Translations under genes and position numbers: made by a program | Part shown: piece by piece, positions 5,141-47,701 of the stretch | Numbering within the stretch: the stretch's first letter is position 1 | Layout of the letters: each line of letters begins with the position of its first letter | NCBI GenBank assembly: GCA_947167045.1 | Contig: CAMVGO010000002.1 | Location: 49,088 to 113,087 of the forward strand | DNA: 64,000 nucleotides | Direction of reading: 5' to 3' | Source: an uncultured Clostridia bacterium | Lineage (GTDB): Bacteria; Bacillota; Clostridia; Saccharofermentanales; Saccharofermentanaceae | Notes under the pieces: model-generated | Told to the model about the DNA's origin: nothing | Database searches by the model: none | What the model saw: the letters and a program-made list of their open reading frames with translations, nothing else

Positions 5141-5375
5141 GTTCATAGCAATTCCGCTTGCTCCGGGTCCTCCGCGCTTCGCTTGTGTGGAAGTCGCAAG
5201 CTGAATGCTATGAACTCGTACGGAAACGTGAGCACTGCAGAATCGCAAGCTCGATACTATGAACGAGACGAAGAGAGGAAAGGTGCGGAAGTCGCAAGCT
5301 GAATGCTATGAACTCGTACGGAAACGTGAGCACTGCAGAATCGCAAGCTCGATACTATGAACGAGACGAAGAAGC
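5141..5375. repeat. Four 49-bp tandem units (A-B-A-B) plus an upstream inverted copy of the core
   Basis: TCGCAAGCT at 5194, 5243, 5292, 5341 (exact 49-bp spacing), each followed by (G/A)CTATGAAC; GTTCATAGCAATTCCGCTTGC at 5141 is the imperfect reverse complement. Confidence 0.85.
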
Positions 5376-5506
5376 GGAAACGGGCCGCCGTTCACACGGA
5401 GTATATTTATATATTTTTGCTTGTAATAAATTATAGTGTTATAATCGCTTATCACGGCCGGAGCGGGTCTATCTTCGCTTGCCGTGAATCTGCCGGGAGT
5501 GGATAT

Positions 5507-17840: not shown

Positions 17841-17877
17841 AGCCGAGATCAGCCGAGATCAGCCGAGATCAGCCGAG
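17841..17877. repeat. 10-bp microsatellite (AGCCGAGATC) x3.7
   Basis: agccgagatc agccgagatc agccgagatc agccgag. Confidence 0.95.
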
Positions 17878-19518
17878 GTTCGTTCCGGAGGGCTTGTTGA
17901 AGAAGATCTTGTCTGCGGCAAATTCGAAGCAGACTCGTCCTTCATTTATGAACGTGAATATCGATGTGCCCTCCTTGGCATTGTTCCTTACGACCAGCTT
18001 GTCAAAGGTGAGATAACCGGGGGCCTTGGCCAGAATCTCAATGCGGCGGTTTATGTTTTCCGCAGGGAAAGAGAAATCGAGCCTGTCGCTCAGGCCGACG
18101 CGGAGCGCCCATGGCTGTACCGACAGCGACAGGGGTGCCTTGGCGTCGGGAAAGATGGAGTGGCGTCTTATCGTGAGCTTAAACTTGCCCTTAAGCTTCT
18201 TTGCGCGGAGCGAGTAATACGCAGGGAACGGAGGCCCCGTAAAGTCGTCGAAGACATCGGAGACGTCCTCATTGCCCAGCATCTGCCAGGATGAATTGAT
18301 CTTGATGTGATCCTTCGGCGTGAATTCGTTGATGACCTTGTCTATCTCGGTCTGTATGTGCTTTGAGAATTCAAGGTCGGAATAGAGCTTGTTTGTCTGA
18401 TAGCGGACGAAAGAGGAATAGGATGCCTCAAGGAGAAGCTTGAGCCTCTTGGCCTTCTGGTCCGGGAAGATCGCAAGCGCATGAGCGATCCTCAGAGCGC
18501 TCTCCGGCAGGCATATGTTGTACTCGCCGGATTCAAACCTGATCCTGGCGTCGTGATATACCTGAAGGAAGATGTTATATGCAAGGAGCGGATCCGGATT
18601 GCCGGCCTCGCCCAAAAGGAGCATGTCCGCGAACATGAGCTTTGCTTCAAAAATGTTGTAGTTCGAAGCGATGGCAAAGTAGGAAAACGCTTTGTTGAAG
18701 TCGGGCTTGCCCGTAAGCCTGCCGTCGTGATAGATGAATCCCAGCGCGTTGGCCGCATAGCCGAAACCGAATTCCCTCAGCAGGATCTCAAAGAGCCTTG
18801 CAGCCTCGGCGTAATCGCAGCTGTATGCGCTGTTGCCGCCGTTGCAGGCAAAAGCCTTGATCTTGAGCGCTTCGAAAACGTGCTCTTCGCACATCAGGTC
18901 CGTGAAATAGACGAATCTCGAGATGATGCTCTCGGGAGCGTCCGACAGGAGCAGGTTGTTGTCCCAGTGGTTTACGAAAGCGAGCATCTGCTCTTTGGTA
19001 TATGTGCGTTCTTCAAAAGGAAGATCCTTGTTTTCCTCAAAATTCTCGATGAGATTAAGGAGTTCGGGGATGCCGAGGACCTCTGAAGCCGTTCCTCTCG
19101 GGAATTTGCTGTCCTCATCGAGCTTGTCCGCAACCTGGGCGAGCTTGACCATTATGGTGACGATCATGTCCTCTTCCGTCTCGGGTATGGGAGGGCACGG
19201 AAAATCGCAGATGCGGTCAGGGTCGGGTCCAAGAAGTTCATCCAGGAGCAGATCCTCATAGAAATAAGTGGTGAGCGGGGCCCACCAGTCGAATATGAAA
19301 TCTTTGAAAGAGAGCTGTTCATCCTCGAAATGTCCGAGCGCAGTCTTAAGGTCTGACAGCTGCATCGGATATTCATTCTCGCACTGGACGTCAAAGCCTG
19401 ACTCGGGATATGCATCCGTGTCATCTCCGCCGACGATATCGATCCAGCCGACATCGTATCTGCAGATATCCATCAGTTTATCCTGTGTCATAAAGATGTA
19501 TGGTCTGTGTTTGCTCAT
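17869..19518 (-). CDS. Sel1/TPR-like repeat protein of unknown function
   Basis: AARLFEILLREFGFGYAANALGFIYHDGRLTGKPDFNKAFSYFAIAS; likely start MSKHRPYIFMTQDKL. Confidence 0.6.
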   Translation of the reverse strand: MSKHRPYIFMTQDKLMDICRYDVGWIDIVGGDDTDAYPESGFDVQCENEYPMQLSDLKTALGHFEDEQLSFKDFIFDWWAPLTTYFYEDLLLDELLGPDPDRICDFPCPPIPETEEDMIVTIMVKLAQVADKLDEDSKFPRGTASEVLGIPELLNLIENFEENKDLPFEERTYTKEQMLAFVNHWDNNLLLSDAPESIISRFVYFTDLMCEEHVFEALKIKAFACNGGNSAYSCDYAEAARLFEILLREFGFGYAANALGFIYHDGRLTGKPDFNKAFSYFAIASNYNIFEAKLMFADMLLLGEAGNPDPLLAYNIFLQVYHDARIRFESGEYNICLPESALRIAHALAIFPDQKAKRLKLLLEASYSSFVRYQTNKLYSDLEFSKHIQTEIDKVINEFTPKDHIKINSSWQMLGNEDVSDVFDDFTGPPFPAYYSLRAKKLKGKFKLTIRRHSIFPDAKAPLSLSVQPWALRVGLSDRLDFSFPAENINRRIEILAKAPGYLTFDKLVVRNNAKEGTSIFTFINEGRVCFEFAADKIFFNKPSGTNLG

Positions 19519-19684
19519 GTGTATATTATAACGCGTGCTTACTCTTATTAAAGACTTGACAAGGGTTTGTCCCATAATCGGGAGGGAACGGGGCGGGCGG
19601 AAACCCCGTATTTACGGACGATGGCGGCTGTACCGGTGAGGGCTGGGGCTGTTTCCGGGAGGTGCATGACGCAAAGTGATGAAA

Positions 19685-19929
19685 TTATCCCGATTGTTCA
19701 TTTTTCGGGACTTTGGGATAAAAATCGAGTGTGAAATTATCCCGGGGAAAGCTTTTCGGGGTGATTGGGATAAAAAACGGACAGGAAATTATCCCGGGTG
19801 AAGCATTTCGTGGCGATTGGGATAAAAAACGGACAGGAAATTATCCCTTGAGATTCATTTTTAAAGATTTGGGATAATTATGCCTTCGAAAATTATCCTG
19901 CGGCGGTAATAATCCATGGTTTGGGATAA
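19685..19929. repeat. Alternating-orientation word array 1 (TTATCCC / GGGATAA), exact 52-bp superperiod
   Basis: TTATCCC at 19685, 19737, 19789, 19841 (TTATCCT 19893); GGGATAA at 19715, 19767, 19819, 19871, 19923. Confidence 0.95.
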
Positions 19930-19988
19930 ATTCGCAGCCATGATCTTCATCTCCGGGCCTGACCTCTGAGCAGGCTGCAACGGGTTTA

Positions 19989-20412
19989 CGATACCTCACG
20001 AAGCGCCAAGATATCGTTTTCGAGGAAAAGTATTCAAAAACGATATCGGGGAAAAGCTCAAGATATCGTTTTTCATGGAATTTATCAAAAAACGATACCT
20101 GACGAAGCACCAAGATATCGTTTTCGAGGAAAAGTATTCAAAAACGATATCGGGGAAAAGTTCAAGATATCGTTTTTCATGGAATTTATCAAAAAACGAT
20201 ACCTGACGAAGCACCGAGATATCGTTTTCATGGGAAAAAACTTGTAAAACGATATCAGTCGACGAGTTGAGATATCGTTTTCATGGAAAAAACTTGTAAA
20301 ACGATATCAGTCGACGAGTTGAGATATCGTTTTCGGGAAAAAGTTGTCATTTACGATATTTTTCAAAAAACTGAGGTATCGTTTTCGGGGAAAAATCCTC
20401 GATTACGATACC
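19989..20412. repeat. Alternating-orientation word array 2 ([AG]TATCG / CGATA[TC]), 52-bp superperiod, 17 words
   Basis: Forward words at 20011, 20063, 20115, 20167, 20219, 20272, 20324, 20376; reverse words at 19989, 20041, 20093, 20145, 20197, 20250, 20302, 20354, 20406. Confidence 0.95.
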
Positions 20413-20495
20413 TCAGGTAGAATCAGATGACCGCTGCATACCACTGCAGACAGCTGCAAGCCGCAACAGTTTCAGCGAGCCGCGCAGCCCCGCCC

Positions 20496-20568: not shown

Positions 20569-22419
20569 TTACTCTACCGTTACGCTCTTTGCGAGGTTAC
20601 GCGGCTTGTCGACGTCGAGACCCCTTGCGCAGGATACGTAGTAGCCGAGGAGCTGGAGCGGAACGACTGCCAGGGAAGCTGCGAAGAGCTCGTTGATCTT
20701 CGGGACATAGACCACGAAGTCCGCGGAGTCCTCGATCGCATAATTGCCGAATGACGTGAGGGCCATGAGGTAAGCACCACGCGCCTTTGTCTCTACAAGG
20801 TTGGAAAGAGTCTTCTCATAAAGACCGCTCTGTGTAAGGACACCGATGACAAAGGTGCCTTCCTCGATGAGGCTGATCGTGCCGTGCTTGAGCTCACCTG
20901 CAGCGTATGCTTCGCTGTGAATGTATGAGATCTCCTTCATCTTGAGGCTGCCTTCCATCGTGATGGCGTAGTCGATGCCGCGGCCGATGAAGAAGATGTC
21001 CTTCTGGGCCGAGAGCTTGGCGGCAAACCACTGGAGACGCTCCTTGTCCTCGAGGACCTTGTTGATCTTGGCGGGGATGGACATTACTTCGGAAGTAAGC
21101 TCTTTAGACTCATCTTCGGTGATGGAGCCCTTTATCAAAGCAAACTTGATCGCAAGAACATAGCAGACAGCGAGCTGGGCTGAATATGCCTTGGTGGTTG
21201 CAACAGAGATCTCGGGACCTGCAAGTGTGTAGAGCACATAGTCTGCTTCGCGTGCGATGGTGGATCCGACAACGTTAACTATGGCAAGTGTCTTGATGCC
21301 GTTAGCCTTTGCATCTCTTAAAGCTGCAAGGGAATCTGCCGTCTCGCCTGACTGGCTGATGATGATGCAGAGGGCATTCTTGTTGAGAGGCATGGATCTG
21401 TAACGGAATTCGGATGCAAGCTCGCATCTTACCGGAATGCCTGCCAGTTTCTCAACGATATACTGGGTGCAGCAGCCGACATGATATGCGGAACCGCATG
21501 CAACGATATAGATCTGTTCAAATGATTTGATGTCCTCATCCGTGAGATTTGTGGCGGAGAGATCGATCTTATATGAGTCTCCGTCGGGTACGATAACGGA
21601 ATTAAGAGTATCTGATACTGCCTTGGGCTGCTCGTGGATCTCCTTCATCATGAAGTGCTCAAATCCGCCCTTTTCGGCAGAAGCCGCATCCCAGTCGATC
21701 GCCACGGGAGTCTTCTCTATGGTGTCACCGTCCAGGTTGTAGAAAGTAACGTTGCCGGGTTCGAGACATGCCATTTCAAGGTCATCGATGTAGTAAACGG
21801 TTCTTGTGTACTTAAGAATGGCGGGAACGTCAGATGCAAGATAGGAAGCATCCTTGTCGAAGCCGATGATCATGGGGGAGTCCTTGCGGGCGACGAAGAT
21901 CTTGCCCGGGTGATCCTTGAACATTACGGCGAGAGCGTAGGAGCCTCTTACACGGACCATTGTCTTTGCGAGGGCTTCGATCGGGTCGTGTGTGTATTTC
22001 TTGTAGTAGTAATCGATGGTCTTGATGGCGACTTCGGTGTCTGTCTCGGAATAGAACTTGTAACCCTTGCGGATCATCTTGTCCCTCAATTCCTGATAGT
22101 TCTCGATGATGCCGTTATGTACACCGACAACGTTATAGTCGTCAACGATGTGGGGATGCGCGTTGTTCTCGGTGGGTTCGCCGTGGGTAGCCCATCTTGT
22201 GTGGCCGATGCCGCAGGTGCCCTTGAGGGCCGCGCCGCCGTCGGTCTTCTCTGCGAGGACTTTGAGTCTGCCCTTGGCCTTGACTACAACGGGGTTCTTG
22301 TCGCCGTCCCTTACCGAGAGACCGGCAGAGTCATAACCTCTGTACTCGAGCTTTGCAAGACCGTCCAGGAGGATAGGAGCTGCTTTTTTCTTTCCTGTGT
22401 ATCCAACGATTCCGCACAT
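20569..22419 (-). CDS. glmS: Glutamine-fructose-6-phosphate aminotransferase (isomerizing)
   Basis: MCGIVGYTGKKKAAPILLDGLAKLEYRGYDSAG; two SIS domains; C-terminal DKPRNLAKSVTVE. Confidence 0.97.
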   Translation of the reverse strand: MCGIVGYTGKKKAAPILLDGLAKLEYRGYDSAGLSVRDGDKNPVVVKAKGRLKVLAEKTDGGAALKGTCGIGHTRWATHGEPTENNAHPHIVDDYNVVGVHNGIIENYQELRDKMIRKGYKFYSETDTEVAIKTIDYYYKKYTHDPIEALAKTMVRVRGSYALAVMFKDHPGKIFVARKDSPMIIGFDKDASYLASDVPAILKYTRTVYYIDDLEMACLEPGNVTFYNLDGDTIEKTPVAIDWDAASAEKGGFEHFMMKEIHEQPKAVSDTLNSVIVPDGDSYKIDLSATNLTDEDIKSFEQIYIVACGSAYHVGCCTQYIVEKLAGIPVRCELASEFRYRSMPLNKNALCIIISQSGETADSLAALRDAKANGIKTLAIVNVVGSTIAREADYVLYTLAGPEISVATTKAYSAQLAVCYVLAIKFALIKGSITEDESKELTSEVMSIPAKINKVLEDKERLQWFAAKLSAQKDIFFIGRGIDYAITMEGSLKMKEISYIHSEAYAAGELKHGTISLIEEGTFVIGVLTQSGLYEKTLSNLVETKARGAYLMALTSFGNYAIEDSADFVVYVPKINELFAASLAVVPLQLLGYYVSCARGLDVDKPRNLAKSVTVE

Positions 22420-22629
22420 AATAAGGAATTCTCCCTGTAATTTTTTAATTGAAGTATTTTATCACACGGCGAATATCCCTATTGAAACTCTCTGGGTATC
22501 ATAATCATTTCCGTTAAGTATGATAACCGTTTGCAAATAATTTTCGTCATATGTCGAAAATAACTATTGATAATTGCCCCGAAACAATTTAAAGTAAGTT
22601 GGCTTTAATAAACGGAAAGGGGAAGTCAT

Positions 22630-23358
22630 ATGCTCGAATTGCAGAACATCAGCTTTCATGCCGATGACAAAGACATCCTTAAAGATATAAACCTTACGAT
22701 AGACGACAAGTTCGTCGCCATTACCGGACCCAACGGCAGCGGTAAATCGACCCTGTTAAAGATCATCATGGGCATCATTAAGCCCACTTCGGGAAAGATA
22801 ATCTTTGACGGACAGGACATCACTGACCTTGCCGTCAACGAACGCGCCAACCTGGGCATCAGCTTTGCATTCCAGCAGCCCGTCAGGTTCAAGGGCCTTA
22901 AGGTAAAGGACCTTCTGGCGATCGCGGCAGGCGAAGGCGTTGACGTCACCAAAGACTGCAAATACCTGTCGGCCGTTGGTCTCTGCGCCAAGGATTACCT
23001 GAACCGTGAGATCAACGATACGCTCTCGGGCGGTGAAATGAAGAGAATCGAGATCGCAATGGCGGCTGCAAGAGGCGGAAAGCTCAGTCTTTTCGACGAG
23101 CCTGAGGCCGGCATCGACCTCTGGAGCTTCCAGAGCCTCATCAAGGTTTTCGAGAACTTAAGAAGAGTCACGAACGGAAATATCATGATAATCAGCCACC
23201 AGGAAAGGATCCTTGAGATCGCCGACAAGATCATCTACCTGAAGGACGGTGTTGTCGACAGATATGACGAGTCCTCCAAGGTCATGAGCGAACTCAACAT
23301 GGGCCGTTACGGATGCGGCTGCGCATACTCTCAGAAAGAAGGTGTCTGCAATGGATGA
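22630..23358 (+). CDS. sufC: SufC-like Fe-S assembly ATPase
   Basis: GPNGSGKSTLLK Walker A, LSGGEMKRIEIAMA signature, LFDEPEAGIDLWSF. Confidence 0.85.
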   Translation: MLELQNISFHADDKDILKDINLTIDDKFVAITGPNGSGKSTLLKIIMGIIKPTSGKIIFDGQDITDLAVNERANLGISFAFQQPVRFKGLKVKDLLAIAAGEGVDVTKDCKYLSAVGLCAKDYLNREINDTLSGGEMKRIEIAMAAARGGKLSLFDEPEAGIDLWSFQSLIKVFENLRRVTNGNIMIISHQERILEIADKIIYLKDGVVDRYDESSKVMSELNMGRYGCGCAYSQKEGVCNG

Positions 23359-35882: not shown

Positions 35883-37964
35883 ATGAGAAGGTCATTAAAG
35901 CTTTTAGTTACATTTATATCTGTTTTGATCACTGCTTCGTTATTTTCGCTGGCCGTTCTGGCTGACGGAGATTCAGCGACCGGCTGGCAGGAGAAAGACG
36001 GCAAATGGTATTACTACGATGAAGATGGCAAAATGGTAACCGGCTGGCTTTATATTGAAGAAGATGATAGTAGGTATTATCTTCTCCCAACGGGCGAGAT
36101 GGCAACCGGCTGGCAGGAGATTGGTGATGAGTGGTATTACTTTTTCTCTTCTGGCAAGAGGGCAGAAGGTTGGAATAAGATTGCCGGTGAATGGTATTAT
36201 TTTGATTGGTACGGAATGGAGACCGACTGGTCTAAGATTAATAATGAGTGGTATTACTTTTATCCGTCAGGCAAAATGGCTCACGATACAACGGTAGACG
36301 GATTTACGTTTAACTCCCAAGGTTTGATTGAAAGTGCAAAAGGCAGCAATGATTCCTTCGACTGGGAACTTTCCTCCGGCGGTGAATTAACGGTTTATTG
36401 CAGATCAAATACATTGAAAGTTAAGAACAATATTGAGTACGCGGTAATTGTAATAGATTTATCAACCTCTTTGAAAATAAAGAAGGCAGCCGATTCACAA
36501 TATAACAGTATCGAATTGGTCAGCGGTGATTTTGGTGATTTCTATTATCTGAAAACTGTTGACATATCAGTTCCTGTCGCTTCATTAGGAACCTATGCAT
36601 TTGCCGGATGCACAAATCTTGAATCAATAACAATTCCTGATTCAGTTACTTCAATTGGAGCTTATGCATTTCAAAGCTGTGAAAGACTTCAATCAGTAAC
36701 AATTCCAGATTCAGTTACTTCAATTGGAACTTATGCATTTTCTAGTTGTGTAAGCCTCAAATCAATAACTATTCCTGATTCTGTTACAACCTTCGGAAAA
36801 CAGCCCTTTGGCGGGTGCACCAGCCTGAAAACAGTCAATCTTCCCGATTCTCTTGCTGATTACGCTTACAAAGGCTTGCTTGCAGGAACAGGAATAGAAT
36901 CAATAGTTATCCCTTCATCAGTTACTTCGATCGCAGAGGAAGCATTTATAGATTGTGATAGTCTTAGTTCAGTAACGATTCCGGATTCAGTAAAGTCAAT
37001 TGGAAACAGTGCATTTGAAAATTGTGATAGTCTTAGATCAGTAACGATTCCGAATTCAGTAACGTCAATTGGAAAAGGAGCATTTTCAAGTTGTGACTGT
37101 CTGAACACTATTAAGTTATCTGATAATATATCGACTGTACCTGATTGGGCATTCAGTTATTGTCCTAATCTTACAACTGTGTATTTCTCAGCCGGAGTTA
37201 AGCGTGTTTCTGCCGGTGCTTTTTATAAATCTCCAGTTAAAGATATTTATTTTACCGGCACTAAAAATGATTGGGATAAGATAGCAATAACATCTGCTAC
37301 ATATATGCAACGTTACTCTCCAGATGATCCTTATGGTGAACCTGTGGAATTATATGCAGAATCAATGACTGTGCTTTTTAAAGGAACATATATCCATTAT
37401 TTGAAAAATGAGTGGGTACAGGACAGCAAAGGCTGGTGGTATCGTTATTCTGACGGTTCTTATCCTGTATCCCGGTGGGAAAACATAGATAAAAAGTGGT
37501 ATTACTTTGATGCTTCCGGTTACATGGTTACAGGCTGGCAGAAAATAGATAGCAGCTGGTTTTTCTTAAATAGAAACGGTGTTATGCAGACCGGTTGGAT
37601 CGAAGACGGCGGCATATGGTATTACCTGAAATCTTCCGGTGTCATGGCAACAGGGTGGCAAGAGATAGGTGAGATCTGGTACTACTTCGGCACTAACGGG
37701 AAGATGGCAAAAGGTTGGCAGAAGATTGGCAGCAAGGATTATTACTTCAAGTCGAATGGCTCGATGGCTTCTGATGAATATATCGACGGATACTATCTGG
37801 ATAAGAGTGGTGCATGGACATACAAACCGAGATCTTCTTGGAAGAAGAATTCAAAGGGCTGGTACTATCAGGATACGTCCGGATGGTATGCAAAGAACGG
37901 CACTTGGAAGATCGATGGCAAGAACTACAATTTCGATGCTAAAGGCTACTGCACGAATCCGTAA
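35883..37964 (+). CDS. Secreted surface protein: choline/cell-wall-binding repeats flanking a BspA-type LRR domain
   Basis: Signal peptide; GWQEIGDEWYYFFSSGKRAEGW repeats; SITIPDSVTSIGAYAFQSC LRRs. Confidence 0.9.
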   Translation: MRRSLKLLVTFISVLITASLFSLAVLADGDSATGWQEKDGKWYYYDEDGKMVTGWLYIEEDDSRYYLLPTGEMATGWQEIGDEWYYFFSSGKRAEGWNKIAGEWYYFDWYGMETDWSKINNEWYYFYPSGKMAHDTTVDGFTFNSQGLIESAKGSNDSFDWELSSGGELTVYCRSNTLKVKNNIEYAVIVIDLSTSLKIKKAADSQYNSIELVSGDFGDFYYLKTVDISVPVASLGTYAFAGCTNLESITIPDSVTSIGAYAFQSCERLQSVTIPDSVTSIGTYAFSSCVSLKSITIPDSVTTFGKQPFGGCTSLKTVNLPDSLADYAYKGLLAGTGIESIVIPSSVTSIAEEAFIDCDSLSSVTIPDSVKSIGNSAFENCDSLRSVTIPNSVTSIGKGAFSSCDCLNTIKLSDNISTVPDWAFSYCPNLTTVYFSAGVKRVSAGAFYKSPVKDIYFTGTKNDWDKIAITSATYMQRYSPDDPYGEPVELYAESMTVLFKGTYIHYLKNEWVQDSKGWWYRYSDGSYPVSRWENIDKKWYYFDASGYMVTGWQKIDSSWFFLNRNGVMQTGWIEDGGIWYYLKSSGVMATGWQEIGEIWYYFGTNGKMAKGWQKIGSKDYYFKSNGSMASDEYIDGYYLDKSGAWTYKPRSSWKKNSKGWYYQDTSGWYAKNGTWKIDGKNYNFDAKGYCTNP

Positions 37965-45850: not shown

Positions 45851-47701
45851 ATGGAAAAGACATTGAGAAAGATAACGGCTTTTCTGTTGATTTTGGCTGA
45901 AATGGTATGTTTCCTGCCGCAGCTGTCAATGAATGTGGCAGCAGATGAAGCGGAAAAACAGGAAGGCTATACAGTAATGCTGACAGGTGGTGCAAATGCG
46001 GTTGCCAGCGGCAGTACGGTTCAGAGCGGACTGCTGAACGGAGAAATGGAGTCTGTTTACTATACTGCGGATACCGGTTATTATTTTGAGGATTTTGAAG
46101 ATATTACGATTAACGGTATTACCGTAACAAAATTGGGTGAAGAGCTTATACAGGTTTACGGAATACCGGAGGCAGATGTGGAGATCGTTGTTCCGGATGC
46201 GGTCAAGATGCCTGTCACCTATACAGTAAGATTCGTAGTGGAAAACGGCGCATGGAATGACGAGTCATCAGATGAAATCGTTGTAACACTTGAAGGCGAT
46301 GATATGAAACTTACGGCAGAGATGATCCCTTCTGCCGGCAATATGCCTGACTTCGCATTCGTTGAAGGTGAGTGGGATGTTGTACCGGATGAAAAAACGG
46401 TAATCACGGAAGATGTTACTTATACATATACTTATGCTCCTCACGGACCGGGCTGGTATGAATACGATGATAACTGGTTTTACTTCGATGAAGAAGGCAA
46501 GCTGGTAGAGAACAGATGGTTCCGGTATAAGAACAAATGGTATTACGTTGACCCTGAAGGCATGATGGTGACAGGCTGGCACGAAGAAGGCGGCAGGATA
46601 TATTATCTGACAGATTCGGGCGCCATGGCTACAGGATGGGCCAGGGTAGATGACGAATGGTACTATTTCGATCCTTCATCCGGTGAAATGAGAAAGGGCG
46701 GATGGTTCGAGATCAACGGCAAGAGATATCTCTTTTATGACGATGGTACTATGTGGTCATCCGCATTCTATTGCGAGGATGACAAGACATACTATATTAC
46801 GGAAGAAGGCACTTTTGCTAAAGGTTGGCAGAAAGTGGACGATTACTGGTATTATTTCGATCCTTCGACCGGTGTTATGAAAACAGACGGATGGAACAAG
46901 ATCAATGGTAAGTGGTTCTATCTCGATGAAGACGGCATTATGTTTAGCGGTACATTCTATGATGAGAATGACTATACATACTTTTTTACGAAAGACGGCT
47001 ACATGGCTACAGGCTGGCAGAAAGTGGACGATTACTGGTATTATTTCGATCCTTCGACCGGTGTTATGAAAACAGACGGATGGAACAAGATCAATGGTAA
47101 GTGGTTCTATCTCGATGAAGACGGCATTATGTTTAGCGGTACATTCTATGATGAGAATGACTATACATACTATTTTACGAAAGACGGTTCCATGGCTACA
47201 GGCTGGAACAAGATAGACGGTGAATGGTATTATTTCGATCCGGCGACCGGTGTGATGAAAACAGACGGATGGAACAAGATCAATGGTAAGTGGTTCTATC
47301 TCGATGAAGACGGCATTATGTTTAGCGGTACATTCTATGATGAGAATGACTATACATACTATTTTACGAAAGACGGTTCCATGGCTACAGGCTGGAACAA
47401 GATAGACGGTGAATGGTATTATTTCTCGATCCCGGACGGCGCTATGAAGACCGGATGGCTGAAGGACAACGGCAAATGGTACTTCATGAAAAGTGACGGC
47501 ATGATGAAGACCGGTTTCTATTATGAAGGAGATACGACTTACTACTTCCTGAGCAGCGGTGTCATGGCAACAAGATGGGTCGGAATCGACGGCATATGGT
47601 ATTGGTTCGGTACTGACGGTGTTATGGCCTGCTCCACAACAGTTACCATAAACGGAAAGGCATATGAGTTTGACAGCGAGGGCATATGTCTGAATCCCTA
47701 A
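45851..47701 (+). CDS. Secreted choline/cell-wall-binding-repeat protein
   Basis: Signal peptide; many GW...WYYFD repeats; three near-identical 189-bp units. Confidence 0.9.
   Translation: MEKTLRKITAFLLILAEMVCFLPQLSMNVAADEAEKQEGYTVMLTGGANAVASGSTVQSGLLNGEMESVYYTADTGYYFEDFEDITINGITVTKLGEELIQVYGIPEADVEIVVPDAVKMPVTYTVRFVVENGAWNDESSDEIVVTLEGDDMKLTAEMIPSAGNMPDFAFVEGEWDVVPDEKTVITEDVTYTYTYAPHGPGWYEYDDNWFYFDEEGKLVENRWFRYKNKWYYVDPEGMMVTGWHEEGGRIYYLTDSGAMATGWARVDDEWYYFDPSSGEMRKGGWFEINGKRYLFYDDGTMWSSAFYCEDDKTYYITEEGTFAKGWQKVDDYWYYFDPSTGVMKTDGWNKINGKWFYLDEDGIMFSGTFYDENDYTYFFTKDGYMATGWQKVDDYWYYFDPSTGVMKTDGWNKINGKWFYLDEDGIMFSGTFYDENDYTYYFTKDGSMATGWNKIDGEWYYFDPATGVMKTDGWNKINGKWFYLDEDGIMFSGTFYDENDYTYYFTKDGSMATGWNKIDGEWYYFSIPDGAMKTGWLKDNGKWYFMKSDGMMKTGFYYEGDTTYYFLSSGVMATRWVGIDGIWYWFGTDGVMACSTTVTINGKAYEFDSEGICLNP
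46881..47430 (+). repeat. Near-identical 189-bp (63-aa) tandem coding repeats
   Basis: AAACAGACGGATGGAACAAGATCAATGGTAAG at 46881, 47070, 47259. Confidence 0.95.

Follow-up and report, generated by a model that had tools for sequence, protein, structure and literature searches.

What holds ten copies of a seven-letter word in exact register beside glmS in an uncultured Clostridia bacterium? The 64-kb stretch of DNA analysed here (the window) carries, at 19685 to 19929, an array (array A) of five 52-bp units of the form TTATCCC-N23-GGGATAA-N15, in which the starts of the two inverted words (together, word A) are spaced 30 + 22 bp. TTATCCC begins at 19685, 19737, 19789 and 19841, and as the variant TTATCCT at 19893, while GGGATAA begins at 19715, 19767, 19819, 19871 and 19923, all ten as the original prediction had placed them. 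Nine of the 20 exact copies of the TTATCCC 7-mer in the window lie within these 245 bp; 7.3 ± 2.5 copies are expected, and none of 100 shuffles of the window reached 20. Tandem Repeats Finder detected a 52-bp array at 19713-19877. Beyond what the original prediction noted, array A is part of a mobile element with many relatives in its own genome, and with moderate confidence we read these arrays as solo, proliferated relatives of the phased binding arrays of PDC-S27-type ATPase genes in other genomes, their reader being putatively a PDC-S27-type protein.

Array B adjoins array A at 19988 to 20413 and follows the same plan with another word (word B, GATATCGT/ACGATAYC). Here GATATCGT alternates with ACGATATC or ACGATACC at the 30 + 22 spacing and 52-bp period of array A, and Tandem Repeats Finder reports 52/104-bp arrays at 19988-20342, built on a word other than A's. 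Together the two arrays form a composite element at 19683 to 20491, both ends approximate, that finishes on the left with the outer word A (AAATTATCCC) and on the right near CAGCGAGCC; no strand is assigned to the element or to either array.

We determined conservation column by column for units drawn from the window's own genome, 60 distinct ones of A and 85 of B, selected at up to two (A) or three (B) word mismatches so that double changes were allowed. In A units the word columns were 92–100% fixed (1.5–2.0 bits), whereas most spacer columns were near random (0.03–0.3 bits), the exceptions being two or three A/T columns flanking the words and, midway along the 23-bp spacer, a core resembling ATTTTT. 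The word columns of B units carried 1.2–2.0 bits, their spacers being somewhat more conserved than those of A. These columns bear out the original prediction, in which word and spacing show stronger conservation than the spacers and array A is more than the product of a simple, recent tandem duplication. Conserved stems would need compensated changes, which accounted for 0 of 15 changed pairs in A and 7 of 61 in B; since the changes are mostly uncompensated, the inverted words are best read as a site for a protein and not as a hairpin. The predicted RNA fold of array A was slightly better than that of shuffles (z −2.06), and a scan of Rfam returned no family over its gathering score.

A repeat of 52 bp spans about five helical turns, which would bring bound dimers into line on one face of the DNA. 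The spacing is moreover quantised, with 29–30 bp within a pair and either 22–23 bp or 42 bp (two turns more) between pairs. The 42-bp gap was seen in Lachnospiraceae YSD2013, RGIG7866 and RGIG6987; in YSD2013-type arrays, gaps of 22 or 42 bp separate 29-bp pairs, a step of two helical turns. Such quantised spacing is what dimers lying side by side on one helix face would require. The Lachnospiraceae loci of YSD2013 type (L016, L018, L022, L030, L034 and L037) hold a dispersed four-pair array with the spacing 29-42-29-22-29-42-29.

The window's own assembly (G000) is a metagenome-assembled genome (MAG) of 2.58 Mb in 104 contigs that is 79% complete. TTATCCC-N20-26-GGGATAA occurred 56 times in it and GATATCGT-N20-30-ACGATATC 66 times, with no occurrence of the reversed control pattern in either case. 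Twenty stretches around these arrays were examined for spacing and context. The 30 + 22 spacing was exact in nearly every array, and A and B adjoined at many loci. The arrays were nearly all intergenic beside unrelated genes, two stretches overlapping the end of a called open reading frame (ORF); a hand tally gave about six convergent, eight co-directional and one divergent gene pair, and no recurring neighbour gene was seen in that tally. Several contigs start or end within an array. As a separate observation, contig C31 (17565-18011 and 23659-24108; L081, L082) holds two AAA_14-DUF4143 (PDC-S01) genes and ends in an A/B array.

The element of the window has a second, inverted copy on contig C30 of the same assembly (L073, ~22170-22770), near-identical over ~800 bp except that it is without some of the internal repeat stretches; the similarity ends abruptly on both sides, and the flanks are unrelated. 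Loci L065 and L071 are 99.3% identical over 280 bp, again with sharp ends and unrelated flanks, and in the pairs L062/L068 and L060/L072 the similarity likewise breaks off sharply and gives way to unrelated flanks. The outer word A forms one end both of the window's element and of the L062/L068 elements. Near-identical copies in unrelated flanks mean that the arrays move, and the A+B arrays are therefore mobile. Tandem duplication also shapes copy number, as copies gain or lose whole internal stretches (the window against L073). No autonomous partner was seen in G000.

Word A is not confined to this genome. Its distribution is patchy, with 2 of 99 relatives carrying it, and a scan of species genomes for word-A triplets found 47 loci, in Saccharofermentans, other Clostridia, Bacteroidales, Kiritimatiellae, Lentisphaerae and Verrucomicrobia. 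Viral contigs gave two weak matches to word A and none to word B, plasmids gave no match by DNA similarity, and a search of the literature for the word itself or a description of such an array found nothing relevant. Loci in MAGs of Kiritimatiellae and Lentisphaerae (L014, L024 and L051) have the array upstream of a gene whose product combines a PF01637 ATPase domain with a winged helix of MarR type and, at the C terminus, a nuclease-like part. L024 and L051 carry TTATCCCC immediately upstream of the ATPase gene and are 96.7% identical over exactly gene plus array, their flanks being unrelated. In L027 the last codons of the ATPase gene are joined directly to the array, which looks like an ATPase-deleted derivative. 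A further inverted word, TCACGC/GCGTGA, flanks several of the word-A arrays in a Saccharofermentans MAG (L028 2900-2940 and 3306-3346; L040 6911-6950; L023 118-158); composite two-word elements may be common.

We then turned to PF01637 genes gathered irrespective of word, defining the array-linked type by the profile of an alignment (A1) that conserves a Walker A motif (GRRRxGKT), a Walker B motif (FxDE) and the E, QxD and ExK of PD-(D/E)XK nucleases. Proteins of this type correspond to PADLOC PDC-S27 (PDLC04984; E <1e-180 for three and 2.6e-72 for L024), a candidate phage-defence gene that joins an AAA+ ATPase (PF01637), a winged helix and a PD-(D/E)XK nuclease. The passages on PDC-S27 in two papers present it as a fusion of an ATPase with a PD-(D/E)XK domain and as abundant both in Archaea and in the rumen (PMC12988326, PMC13356809), and it is reported to rank with the commonest candidate defence genes of archaea and rumen bacteria. 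They give 3503 archaeal and 4562 bacterial systems (PMC12988326) and 2865 in the rumen set (PMC13356809), describe experimental validation as pending for most such defence candidates (PMC12988326, PMC13356809), and make no mention of cis arrays or of gene–array mobility.

Scoring alternating inverted exact 7-mers within 320 bp upstream of the ATPase gene, we found at least three words at 27 of 55 PDC-S27-type genes (26 of 54 without L050, which had been found by the word search) and at least four at 18 of 55. Shuffled sequences reached three words in 0.5% of cases and four in 0%, and 0 of 19 control genes had such an array. The words are diverse (ACAGCTG, GGCTGTA, TAGCGGA, ATCGGGC and others), most gene copies having their own, and the periods are mostly 51–56 bp with, by eye, an A-run at the centre of the unit. 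In a rumen Bacteroidales MAG (L149), TTTATCCCTAA forms three 55-bp units 12 bp ahead of the predicted start; the word TTATCCCTAA lies directly upstream of the ATPase gene, which thus has TTATCCC itself before it. Arrays of TTRTCCCCGAA type stand on either side of the gene in L148/L055, and words on both sides were also found in L083, L100, L182 and L125/L126. Units of gene plus array recur in unrelated flanks (L024/L051, L101/L165, L103/L152 and L125/L126): the two move together. Genes of this type on plasmids and phages also had one or more inverted word pairs upstream, the plasmids being those of Segatella hominis, Butyrivibrio fibrisolvens D1, Phocaeicola massiliensis and Emticicia oligotrophica and the phage a human-gut phage clone. 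A relative in Wolbachia phage WO (L239 2534-3997; MN180249.1), annotated as an archaeal ATPase fused to DUF234, sits in the structural-gene block between the head–tail preconnector and other phage genes and has CCGCGGTA-like repeats just upstream. Other PF01637 subfamilies (L087-L089, L113-L118) had no arrays. PDC-S01 (AAA_14-DUF4143) was rejected as a candidate reader, 3 of its 30 upstream regions having three words, irregularly spaced, and none a regular array.

The arrays of the window and those of PDC-S27 genes thus share alternating inverted words, a similar period (52 bp, as 30 + 22, here; 51–56 bp there) and an A/T-rich unit centre (the ATTTTT-like core here and, by eye, A-runs there). 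They differ in that the window's arrays are solo and multicopy, with no adjacent PDC-S27 gene found in G000. Because arrays of the same plan, with private words, stand before PDC-S27 genes, the PDC-S27 enzyme is the likely reader of such arrays. Arrays A and B would then be clusters of helically phased, putative protein-binding sites, each unit a pair of inverted 7–8-bp words set ~30 bp apart on either side of an A/T-rich centre, with a new unit every 52 bp; this anatomy matches that of the arrays that precede, and in some cases flank, PDC-S27 genes. Presumably one PDC-S27-type protein reads word A and another word B, the reader gene lying in the uncaptured part of the incomplete MAG or having since been lost. 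An array next to its gene would serve both as autoregulatory operator and as the cis end of a mobile unit whose movement the enzyme may drive. A+B amounts to a non-coding mobile element of ~0.8 kb that has reached some twenty or more intergenic sites in G000, and such solo arrays would be non-autonomous derivatives comparable to miniature inverted-repeat transposable elements (MITEs).

Does the PDC-S27 protein read the word? Among ATPase pairs at least 55% identical, words matched at 9.4 of 14 positions against 6.3 when permuted (p 0.0002), the word arms having been delimited by hand. Several observations weigh against the reading that we favour. Such likeness among close ATPases could be explained by shared descent of the flanking DNA, and over all ATPase pairs word and protein similarity showed no significant correlation. 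G000 had no PF01637 match over cut-off, no DUF234 and no match to the A1 profile, and the other congener carrying word A (G016, a MAG that is 64% complete) had neither DUF234 nor an A1 match. A gene between repeated arrays would readily drop out of a short-read MAG, which we offer as an argument rather than as evidence. The private words TTATCCCC, GTTGCCAT and TTATCCCTA had few or no solo copies in their own genomes, and none of the private words tested went beyond one to three loci in the Bacteroidales and Kiritimatiellae that were examined; where a cognate gene is visible the word is thus nearly confined to it, and massive solo dispersal is so far seen only where none is visible. The ATPase of L050, which adjoins a word-A array, seems by eye to have a closer inverted word of its own, and that adjacency may be incidental. 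Finally, inspection by eye of the copies compared revealed no clear target-site duplication.

Much of this could also be expected of other repeats. Like repetitive extragenic palindromic (REP) sequences, bacterial interspersed mosaic elements (BIMEs), REPINs and MITEs, the arrays are short, non-coding, dispersed, intergenic, built of inverted words and mobile without autonomy, and the four compared pairs (window/L073, L065/L071, L062/L068 and L060/L072), whose near-identity or similarity stops sharply at unrelated flanks, are MITE-like. The arrays might then be repeats of the REP/BIME or MITE kind that owe their movement to an unrelated transposase (such as Y1/RAYT or that of an insertion sequence), their likeness to PDC-S27 arrays reflecting convergence on a phased dimer-site array. 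The sharp boundaries, the position of the G000 arrays mostly downstream of or between genes (one clear divergent case in the hand tally) and the lack of a cognate ATPase in the G000 MAG all suit this explanation. REP sequences, however, form hairpins with compensated changes, a pattern not seen here, and the phased 52-bp protein-site arrays and two coupled word families of the window set it apart from these elements. In other phyla, moreover, the same word and spacing immediately precede PDC-S27-type genes (L149, L024/L051), and the 51–56-bp period recurs there with many other words; we consider an unrelated transposase unlikely. RNA-level elements, that is, transcribed hairpin arrays acting as terminators or mRNA stabilisers, would account for every unit being an inverted repeat and for the slightly better fold, but stems of just 7–8 bp with loops of 22–23 nt, overwhelmingly one-sided word changes, spacing quantised in helical turns and the empty Rfam scan make this explanation very improbable.

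Tandem inverted-site arrays resemble plasmid partition centromeres such as sopC, and a period of about five helical turns would equally suit sites of chromosome architecture or partition at which a ParB-, SopB- or nucleoid-associated-protein-like factor bridges or condenses DNA, mobility not being their main feature. With plasmid iterons and centromeres (F sopC among them) the arrays share tandem, helically phased sites for an oligomerising DNA-binding protein, putative here; they differ in being chromosomal and dispersed, with a word private to each system and a proposed AAA+/nuclease reader. Near-identical copies in unrelated flanks, two independent words side by side and the patchy distribution of word A argue against such a role, which we regard as decidedly improbable. 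A simple recent tandem duplication of an unconstrained word would explain the gain and loss of whole stretches of units but is contradicted by fixed words among mostly near-random spacer columns, and is scarcely credible. CRISPR arrays likewise combine a regular period, a conserved repeat and a variable spacer; here, by contrast, just two inverted 7-mers and a weak core are conserved in each unit, with no identical repeat of 23–50 bp.

Both neighbours of the composite element lie outside it on the minus strand. The original prediction had placed array A between glmS and a Sel1-like gene: glmS (20569 to 22419), the right-hand neighbour, stands as assigned from sequence, but the 568-amino-acid ORF at 17869 to 19575 has no Pfam match at E ≤0.001, leaving its Sel1-like label unconfirmed. 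Elsewhere in the window, a 49/98-bp tandem repeat lies at 5185-5380, its 98-bp copies 96% matching, and repeats of 69 and 189 bp, periods that are multiples of three, lie at 36618-37096 and 46764-47425; these two are probably leucine-rich and cell-wall-binding protein repeats.

In conclusion, we put forward, tentatively, the wider possibility that PDC-S27 genes are widespread one-gene mobile units whose AAA+/winged-helix/nuclease protein recognises a private, fast-changing word, helically phased in an array at the unit's own ends, the window's arrays being proliferated, gene-less relatives in which two orthogonal word families travel together. Gene-specific cis arrays would provide PDC-S27 with a concrete, testable DNA target and a likely mode of autoregulation, and the arrays offer a natural set of many orthogonal word–protein pairs. 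They also prompt the question of whether PDC-S27 may be a mobile element in its own right and not only a defence gene.
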